DNA of 8,748 bases, taken from Muribaculaceae bacterium. Its GTDB lineage: Bacteria; Bacteroidota; Bacteroidia; Bacteroidales; Muribaculaceae. Shown here one piece after another: positions 1,032-4,988 of the stretch. Both the position numbers and the translations under genes were made by a program. The notes below the pieces were generated by a model. It ran no database searches and was not told where the DNA came from. It saw nothing but the letters and a program-made list of their open reading frames with translations. Location of the stretch: the NCBI GenBank assembly GCA_017962285.1, contig JAGCVR010000010.1:1-8748 (forward strand), read 5' to 3'. Numbering within the stretch: the stretch's first letter is position 1; each line of letters opens with the position of its first letter.

Positions 1032-2270
1032 TTACACTTTTCTCCACAGATACATTTTGTCGCTCGGGCGTATCTTAACATCGGTTTTAATGGAAAAACG
1101 CTCGCCTTTCACCGTCTTTTCCACAGGCTTAAGGTTGACGCGGATCTCTTCCACGCGAATCTCCACCGAACCTGTGGTGGGTCCGTTTATCACCACGTCG
1201 TCGCCAACATGAAGCTCGCCCGCATCCATCTGGAATTCTGCCACACCAATGTTGCCGAAATAGCGGATTCCCTTTGCCAGATAAGCTTTTACGCGTGTGG
1301 CGCTGGAGCCATACTTGCTGCTCCACTCACCGAGTCTCTGCCCCAGATAATAGCCATTCCAGAAACCTCGGTTGAACACGGTGGCAAGTCGTTCGTCCCA
1401 CTGAGCAATCTTTTCCTCGGTGTAAGTGCCGTCGGCAAGGCTGCAAAGAGCCTCGTTGTAGCAGCTGACCACAGTGCGGACATATTCAGGTCCACGGGCA
1501 CGGCCCTCAATCTTCAGCACCCTCACGCCGGCATCTGCCATCTTGTTTAGAAAATGTATGGTTTTCAGGTCCTTGGGCGACATGATATATTTATTCTGTA
1601 TGGCAAGGCTGTCACCGGTATCAAGGTCGGTAACTTCGTAGCCCCGGCGGCAAATCTGTCGGCAGGCACCGCGATTGGCACTCGCGCCGGTTTCATGCAG
1701 GCTGAGATAGCATTTGCCGCTCACCGCCAGTCACATAGCGCCGTGGCAGAACATCTCAATCCGCACACGCTCGCCATGAGGTCCACAGATGTTCTGTTCC
1801 TGTATCTGCATATGAATCCTGCTCACCTGCTCCATGTTCAGTTCCCTGGCAAGGACCATCACGTCGGCCCACTGGGAATAGAATTTCACCGCTTCAATAT
1901 TGCTCACGTTTACCTGGGTGGAGATGTGCACTTCCACCCCGATGCTCCGGGCATAGAGAATAGTTGCCATGTCGCTGGCGATAACGGCGGTGATGGAGGC
2001 TTCGCGTGCAGCATCCACAATGCGGTGCATATAGTCTATGTCTTCATCGTAAACGATGGTATTGACCGTCAGGTAGGTTTTTATGCCGCGTTCCCAGCAC
2101 CACTCAGAGATGGTGCGGAGATCGTCGAGATTGAAATTAACGCTCGACTTGGAACGCATGTTCAAGCCTTCAATGCCGAAATAGATGGCATCGGCTCCAC
2201 CCTGCCAAGCCGCAGTGAGTGACTCCCACGACCCTACCGGCGCCATTATTTCAAAATCCTCTCTTCGCAT
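1032..2270 (-). CDS. U32-family protein (TrhP/YrrO-like, probable RNA hydroxylase), interrupted by in-frame TGA at codon 180
   Basis: From ATG at 2270 to TAA at 1034-1032 there are 412 codons in one frame, close to the usual length of U32 'peptidase' proteins of the YrrO/TrhP type. The N-terminal half has the family's barrel start (MAPVGSWESLTAAWQGGADAIYFG, residues about 9-32), then STQVNVSN and MVLARELN, ending in EMFCHGAM (172-179). Codon 180 is TGA (1733-1731). Reading continues in frame as LAVSGKC, RGAC and QIC (Cys 187, 203, 207), IMSPKDL, KIEGRARGPEYV and FNRGFWNGYYLGQ, all expected of the family. In relatives the motif reads HGALC...SGKC, so the TGA replaces a conserved cysteine. U32 members characterised in E. 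coli and Bacillus hydroxylate tRNA or rRNA pyrimidines (TrhP, RlhA) using cysteine-bound Fe-S clusters; despite the name, peptidase activity is doubtful for this branch. The gene follows mutS by 34 bases without a visible promoter. If TGA stops translation, a 179-residue fragment lacking the other cysteines results. Exact substrate is unknown. Confidence 0.85.
1700..1728 (-). promoter_or_regulatory. Candidate hairpin just after the in-frame TGA (SECIS-like position, weak fit)
   Basis: Starting two bases after the TGA, the minus-strand RNA can pair GGC (1728-1726) with GCC (1702-1700) and UGAG (1723-1720) with CUCA (1706-1703). Between these strands a GG bulge is left out. An inner stem of GGC with GCU (1718-1716 / 1711-1709) closes a loop AAAU. 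The loop lies about 16 bases after the UGA, within the range usual for bacterial SECIS elements. However, the loop lacks the G normally found near its start and the stem is broken by a bulge and an internal loop. G/C-rich coding sequence often folds like this by chance. Confidence 0.2.
1731..1733 (-). other. In-frame TGA replacing a conserved cysteine codon of the U32 gene
   Basis: The minus-strand codons around this point are GCT ATG TGA CTG GCG GTG AGC GGC AAA TGC, read as A-M-stop-L-A-V-S-G-K-C. The family motif has Cys where the TGA stands; it aligns with the cysteine of HGALC in E. coli TrhP, from memory Cys169. One base change from TGC or TGT gives TGA. The next base is C, a context known to make UGA a leaky stop and also the one at the selenocysteine codon of E. 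coli fdhF. No other interruption occurs in the 412-codon frame. Whether it is a nonsense mutation, a read error or a recoded codon cannot be told here. Confidence 0.9.
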
Positions 2271-4917: not shown

Positions 4918-4945
4918 GACGATTTAGAAAAAAGGAATTAAAGGT

Positions 4946-4981
4946 GAAGTTAAATTTGAAGTTAAAGGTGAAGTTAAAGGT
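4946..4981. repeat. 12-base tandem repeat upstream of mutS
   Basis: Three adjacent copies of GAAGTTAAAGGT occur on the plus strand (4946-4957 with its last five bases diverged to AATTT, 4958-4969, 4970-4981). They are flanked by partial copies (from about 4935 and from 4982), and a detached copy, GAAGTTAAAGAT, lies at 5018-5029. The tract begins 28 bases upstream of the mutS ATG. Copy number of such tracts can change by slippage. Function unknown; it may just be leader sequence. Confidence 0.7.
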
Positions 4982-4988
4982 GAAGTAA

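Follow-up and report, generated by a model that had tools for sequence, protein, structure and literature searches.

The window analysed here, by which we mean the whole stretch of 8,748 bases, is contig C41 of a 1.48-Mb draft genome (224 contigs, 61% complete). It carries a gene of the U32 family (PF01136), the reading frame of which is interrupted by a single TGA codon at the position of a conserved cysteine. The features of this gene are the following:

1032..2270, minus strand: frame of the U32-family (PF01136) gene, 412 codons plus TAA, with one interruption
1731..1733, minus strand: in-frame TGA, codon 180, first cysteine of the CX6CX15CX3C motif
1730..1736, minus strand: seven-base stretch in codons 179-181 with three non-synonymous differences from the relative L003 (genome G077)
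1710..1712, minus strand: C187, second cysteine of the motif, intact
1662..1664, minus strand: C203, third cysteine of the motif, intact
1650..1652, minus strand: C207, fourth cysteine of the motif, intact

Read in frame from 2270 to 1032 on the minus strand, the sequence around the stop is EMFCHGAM-stop-LAVSGKC. The translation bears out the preliminary description of this DNA, according to which a lone in-frame TGA lies in an otherwise intact U32 frame; it is found at codon 180 of 412, and the frame ends with a terminal TAA. It had also been proposed that both sides of the stop keep family motifs in one frame, and indeed the Peptidase_U32 model aligns with its positions 2-94 before and 97-230 after the stop. 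The read-through protein reaches 207 bits with PF01136 (gathering cut-off 22.4), and each piece of the split frame also passes the cut-off when taken separately. The protein belongs to a Bacteroidales branch of the U32 family and has the full domain, split only by the stop, as well as the cysteine spacing of U32 families. This spacing, C180(TGA)-x6-C187-x15-C203-x3-C207, fits the pattern CX6CX15CX3/4C except for codon 180, which encodes cysteine in the relatives, and it is in the TGA at the first cysteine codon that the gene differs from other U32 proteins. The pattern is described as recurrent in U32 families, of which UbiU and UbiV bind a [4Fe-4S] cluster via related motifs (PMC6747719). The best NCBIfam matches of the protein are TrhP and UbiU, yet both cut-offs were missed (159.2 versus 534 bits for the TrhP equivalog and 156 versus 440 bits for UbiU), and by this test it can be assigned to neither of them. 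By family, the normal protein is predicted to be a U32 enzyme of the RNA hydroxylase type, in which the four cysteines would bind a [4Fe-4S] cluster. A genuine stop would limit the product to 179 residues, with none of the four cysteines of the motif. At the DNA level, no second copy of the gene was found in the same draft beyond a partial match of 41 bases, and a distant U32 paralogue (34% identity) is located on contig C214.

A protein search with the U32 protein gave a match in each of the 101 genus genomes; the copy in the window is the sole one of the best matches to contain a stop. In 98 of the 100 other genomes, an orthologue-like match without a stop covers residue 180; of the remaining two, G019 yielded nothing but a distant paralogue, and for G094 the match is confined to a C-terminal piece. 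At the DNA level, codon 180 was inspected in 70 other loci, 29 of them from the search of the genus genomes and 41 from a named genome collection, whose members are mostly titled Bacteroidales, Muribaculaceae, Prevotellaceae or Porphyromonadaceae bacteria, several of them from ruminants. All 70 loci have a cysteine codon (TGC in 61, TGT in 9), which is preceded by a leucine codon and followed by ATG, whereas the window reads ATG TGA CTG at codons 179-181. Two further loci, from G008 and G035, have TGC as well. The 72 loci represent 54 distinct sequences over 600 compared bases, some genomes being counted twice. The recurrence of TGA at this codon in orthologues, for which the preliminary description had recommended to look, was thus not observed, as 72 of 72 related loci have TGC or TGT. 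At the protein level, 119 of the best 120 of 7,997 scored full-length homologues read L-C-M, and one is off the motif pattern. Proteins named after Sodaliphilus are among the homologues, at 79-80% identity.

The 179-residue piece was also used as a query. No near-identical truncated protein was found among the matches listed (120 of 1,874), the best of which is 81% identical, and the ends of the fragments among these matches are spread evenly, with one to three per occupied position. One homologue of 179 residues (P0034, 72% identical) stops exactly before the cysteine position. A recurrent truncated allele was considered for P0034 and set aside, because the listed fragment ends are evenly spread; it is probably a piece from the edge of a contig. 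A U32 gene that is 73% identical to that of the window was also encountered on a 543-kb contig titled Lachnospiraceae bacterium (L053, JAMPGZ010000001.1). The other matches in the same search are Bacteroidales records, and this record may carry a wrong label or be a mixture.

The closest counterpart is the same-species protein P0122, which is identical to the read-through U32 protein at 407 of 412 residues if codon 180 is read as cysteine. The two proteins differ at residues 59, 179, 181, 328 and 349, and at residues 179-181 P0122 reads L-C-M, while the window reads M-stop-L. Judged by P0122, the same species has a copy of the U32 protein with the cysteine. The adjoining MutS was compared with five proteins from the same species, 865 or 870 residues in length, from which it differs at 2 to 6 residues; D94 is the sole site at which the window departs from all five. 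The contig is therefore not broadly riddled with errors, since MutS looks nearly clean. The closest relative compared at the DNA level, L003 from genome G077, is 78% identical over the U32 gene, and the differences fall mainly on third codon positions (196, as compared with 45 on first and 22 on second positions), a pattern of ordinary purifying selection on the gene. Three non-synonymous differences from L003 are packed into the seven bases 1730-1736, i.e. in codons 179-181. Instead of a single tidy codon substitution, the sequence thus has a minor scar at this site.

The same draft was surveyed for other in-frame stops in 80 of its 224 contigs (577,799 bases, 39% of the draft). The survey consisted of a scan for stops with a coding signal on both sides, as judged by codon usage, followed by partial inspection and then by family models, and cases were taken as firm if the family model continues across the stop. 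The scan discriminates weakly, as the U32 stop itself ranked only 40th, so that cases are missed; moreover, most of the 16 high-ranking cases shown are, by eye, neighbouring genes. Nevertheless, at least five further in-frame stops were found in conserved genes of the 80 contigs, two of them TAA, two TAG and one TGA. These are listed first below, followed by a likely case and a candidate:

L160:1998-2000, in-frame TAG in a UvrD helicase gene; the Pfam model aligns at 1-219 and then at 221-271
L180:7870-7872, in-frame TAA in a NAGLU gene; the model aligns at 1-178 and then at 181-335
L150:6985-6987, in-frame TGA in a PorT gene; the model aligns at 1-54 and then at 64-239
L133:15912-15914, in-frame TAA in the gene of a LytTR response regulator; the family model extends across the stop
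L113:5265-5267, in-frame TAG in an acyl-CoA dehydrogenase gene; the N-terminal match has 21.1 bits, slightly under the curated cut-off of 22.9
L131:3088-3090, in-frame TAG in a Peptidase_M15 gene, a likely case, in which the downstream piece alone was matched
L144:5520-5522, candidate in-frame TAG in a SusD-like gene, the downstream piece of which has no match

In a control scan of G004, a genome in a single contig of which 800 kb were covered, one comparable case, a leucine-rich-repeat protein, was seen by eye among the top 22. A homology comparison of the draft with 800 kb of G004 yielded 52 regions with 50 kb aligned, six in-frame stops and one frameshift-like pair; none of the six stops has strong identity on both sides. 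One of them, a TGA opposite a cysteine codon (L155:5040), was rejected as it lies antisense to an open frame of 875 codons, the start of which reads like alanyl-tRNA synthetase, and two more were set aside for being antisense to the same frame. Relatives of the other broken genes were sought in the collected loci, where one weak SusD match was the only result. That unrelated sites carry TAA, TAG and TGA alike is to be expected from errors or decay and not from the recoding of UGA. Where a gene is otherwise intact, a truncated protein prediction has been used as a symptom of assembly errors (PMC6785717). The symptom in the window resembles such spurious stops of draft assemblies; however, the case described there concerns indels in long-read assemblies, whereas the window keeps its frame and the bases themselves differ.

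The preliminary description had suggested that the TGA might be recoded, either as selenocysteine or as cysteine by a special tRNA, and had proposed a search for selA, selB, selD and a tRNA-Sec. The search spoke against this. SelA gave no match at all in the 101 genus genomes, although E. coli and three other control genomes were matched. SelB and SelD did not exceed the cut-off in any of the 101 genomes; weaker matches, present in 101 and 96 genomes, respectively, are probably related GTPases and PurM-like proteins. For tRNA-Sec, weak matches were obtained in 100 of the 101 genomes, one of which (L073) is over the threshold with 47.2 versus 47 bits and is called tRNA-Ser(UGA) by ARAGORN. The best match of the window's own genome (L087) has 43.6 versus 47 bits and is likewise a tRNA-Ser according to ARAGORN. 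As the own genome is only 61% complete, its own lack of Sec genes would by itself prove little; 48 of the genus genomes are at least 90% complete. Moreover, a generic folding analysis, which is not a SECIS model, gave the stretch of 48 bases that starts with the UGA no better fold than shuffled sequences (z 0.35). With the bacterial selenocysteine insertion system (SelA, SelB, SelC and SelD), the window thus shares the in-frame TGA at a conserved cysteine, but the 101 genus genomes have neither SelA, SelB or SelD over the cut-off nor a convincing tRNA-Sec, and selenocysteine was rejected on these grounds.

A reassignment of UGA throughout the genome was discarded as well, because TGA is a common terminator and release factor 2 is retained (prfB, 438 versus 370 bits). 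The 310 long coding segments in the 80 contigs end with TAA in 167, TGA in 96 and TAG in 47 cases. That the complete stop codons are TAA or TAG only had been taken as a weak hint at recoding; this is true for the five in the window, but the hint does not hold in view of the 96 segments that end with TGA. Recoding is further countered by the in-frame TAA and TAG stops and by the same-species cysteine copy P0122. We also considered a programmed frameshift at UGA-C, which was rejected upon inspection of the sequence, as the fourth codon of the +1 frame, counted from the stop, is itself a TGA.

A tRNA with the anticodon UCA, the other item for which a search had been recommended, is in fact present in the genome, in which it lies on contig C146 beside a protein gene:

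G000:C146:4463-4555, class II tRNA with the anticodon UCA; 62.8 bits as tRNA, labelled tRNA-SeC by ARAGORN
G000:C146:3448-4555 (L112), cassette of the UCA tRNA and the gene of an RNase III-like protein; the other cassettes are L231, L232, L233, L238 and L239

According to the alignment with the tRNA model, the tRNA has a 7-bp acceptor stem and a 5-bp T stem, and it has a long variable arm and U73. It is located directly upstream of the gene for a protein of 332 residues, which has weak similarity to RNase III (E 8e-6) and to dsRNA-binding domains (E 1.5e-4), both under the curated cut-offs. Two distant relatives of the protein match the RNase III-like model just under the cut-off. The cassette proteins comprise about 300-330 residues and have a basic tail. 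The acidic signature residues of RNase III seem to be absent from the protein on inspection. The tRNA, as a near-full-length match, and the protein occur together in an identical set of four of the 101 genus genomes, and between G000 and the other three the tRNA is 96-97% and the protein 64-65% identical. The protein was found in four of 397 genomes of the family, which are the same four as in the genus, and in three of 393 genomes of the order, namely the own genome and two in other families. In all six protein carriers, which belong to three families, the UCA tRNA adjoins the protein gene. A second class II tRNA with the anticodon UCG is present in five of the six; beside the cassette protein in G000, it was not found. 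The protein was not detected in viral contigs, plasmids and phage records, nor were the exact patterns of the UCA and UCG tRNAs detected in viral contigs. The matches of the tRNA pair to phage records are short (at most 14% of the query), and some of them are annotated as tRNA-Gly. Over its last 27 bases, the UCA tRNA shares 93% identity with the tRNA-Gly(CCC) found in four genus genomes, and its acceptor stem, with the pairs G1-C72, C2-G71 and G3-C70, looks more like that of tRNA-Gly.

Among the known systems, the selC* tRNA-Cys described by Mukai et al. 2017 bears some resemblance to the UCA tRNA. As summarised in the review PMC7609411, these tRNAs have an opal anticodon and an 8/4 cloverleaf, and a second selB or cysS gene lies beside some of the selC* genes. 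The likeness consists in U73, in the long variable arm reminiscent of tRNA-Sec and in the anticodon UCA, which some of the members have; selC* tRNA-Cys is characterised by U73 together with a UCA or GCA anticodon (PMC7609411), and the tRNA on C146 has U73 and UCA. However, this tRNA has a 7/5 and not an 8/4 cloverleaf, and in contrast to the selC* neighbours reported in the review, its partner is an RNase III-like gene, usually joined by a UCG tRNA in the other carriers. A literature search, which was largely made without subscription papers, brought neither a U32 selenoprotein nor a UCA-tRNA cassette to our notice.

In summary of the observations at the locus, the TGA is a difference that is seen only in the window's assembly and in an otherwise ordinary U32 gene. 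We infer that it most likely goes back to faulty assembly or base calling in a fragmentary draft, and that the codon is not recoded. An error is the most likely explanation because TAA, TAG and TGA all occur as stray stops elsewhere in the same draft. The seven-base stretch would have been generated by a small number of bad reads, perhaps a single one, or by misassembly at a thinly covered site, and the real organism would make a normal full-length U32 protein. An error is less easily reconciled with the nearly clean MutS on the same contig and with the differences from P0122 at residues 59, 328 and 349 besides the scar. Since these three residues differ, the window represents another strain than P0122, which could carry a real nonsense mutation. 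The U32 gene would then likely be a fresh pseudogene, leaving the cell with only the short fragment devoid of the Fe-S cysteines. Such a recent change would be in line with the five aligned differences from P0122 besides the stop codon, with the clean-looking MutS and with the intact remainder of the U32 frame, but no truncated copy from the same species is among the 120 of 1,874 matches listed for the 179-residue piece. Moreover, in-frame stops are found in UvrD, PorT and other unrelated genes, for which a shared technical cause is simpler than parallel decay, and three changes in seven bases are unusual for one new mutation. A genuine nonsense mutation therefore appears unlikely, even though it is the most serious competitor of the error. 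The preliminary description had named, as the alternative to recoding, that an intact family gene was hit either by a sequencing error or by a recent mutation; taken as a pair, these two are supported.

It is also conceivable, but highly improbable, that the UCA tRNA on contig C146 reads the UGA at codon 180, so that the protein would be full-length and carry an amino acid different from selenocysteine at this site. The genome does contain this class II tRNA, which is conserved in three other genus genomes and adjoins the gene of the same protein in two further families, and its discriminator U73 is a feature of tRNA-Cys (PMC7609411). However, the three other genus carriers have cysteine codons at position 180 (L012 in G063, and L240 and L241 in G008 and G035), TGA ends about 31% of the long coding segments, release factor 2 is present, and the in-frame TAA and TAG codons of the same draft are outside the normal reach of a UCA anticodon. 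Hence, the cassette counts little for codon 180, because the other carriers in the genus keep the cysteine, UGA commonly terminates and TAA and TAG are out of reach; the recommended search for a UCA-anticodon tRNA was successful as such, but did not lend weight to recoding at this site. The broader idea that a cassette of a UCA tRNA and an RNase III-like protein, which would be mobile or passed on only sporadically, reads UGA, and that nonsense TGA alleles such as the one in the U32 gene are tolerated or used, is a speculation to which we would give very little credence. Still far less probable, to a degree that is practically negligible, is the insertion of selenocysteine at a redox-active or Fe-S cysteine. 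The exact position of the TGA at a conserved cysteine would suit it, but SelA has no match and SelB and SelD are over the cut-off in none of the 101 genus genomes, the lone tRNA-Sec match over the threshold (by 0.2 bit) is a tRNA-Ser(UGA) according to ARAGORN, and the 48 bases that start with the UGA have no better fold than shuffled sequences.

By itself, the TGA in the U32 gene matters little. It calls for caution: when the draft is fragmentary, an in-frame TGA that coincides with a conserved cysteine does not count as evidence of recoding before the other two kinds of stops, the related copies and the decoding genes have been examined. The UCA-tRNA cassette is the more interesting side finding, and it makes the idea of a suppressor directly testable. 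If true, a working UGA-reading tRNA in bacteria in which UGA also terminates would bear on the question of how bacteria tolerate natural suppressors.

Two minor observations were made elsewhere in the window. Between mutS and serS, a short degenerate tandem repeat with units like GGTGAAGTTAAA was noticed by eye at 4941-4987. Moreover, at 1-750 on the minus strand, an open reading frame that runs off the contig end matches chitobiase C-terminal and Fn3-associated domains, and it perhaps encodes a secreted surface protein.
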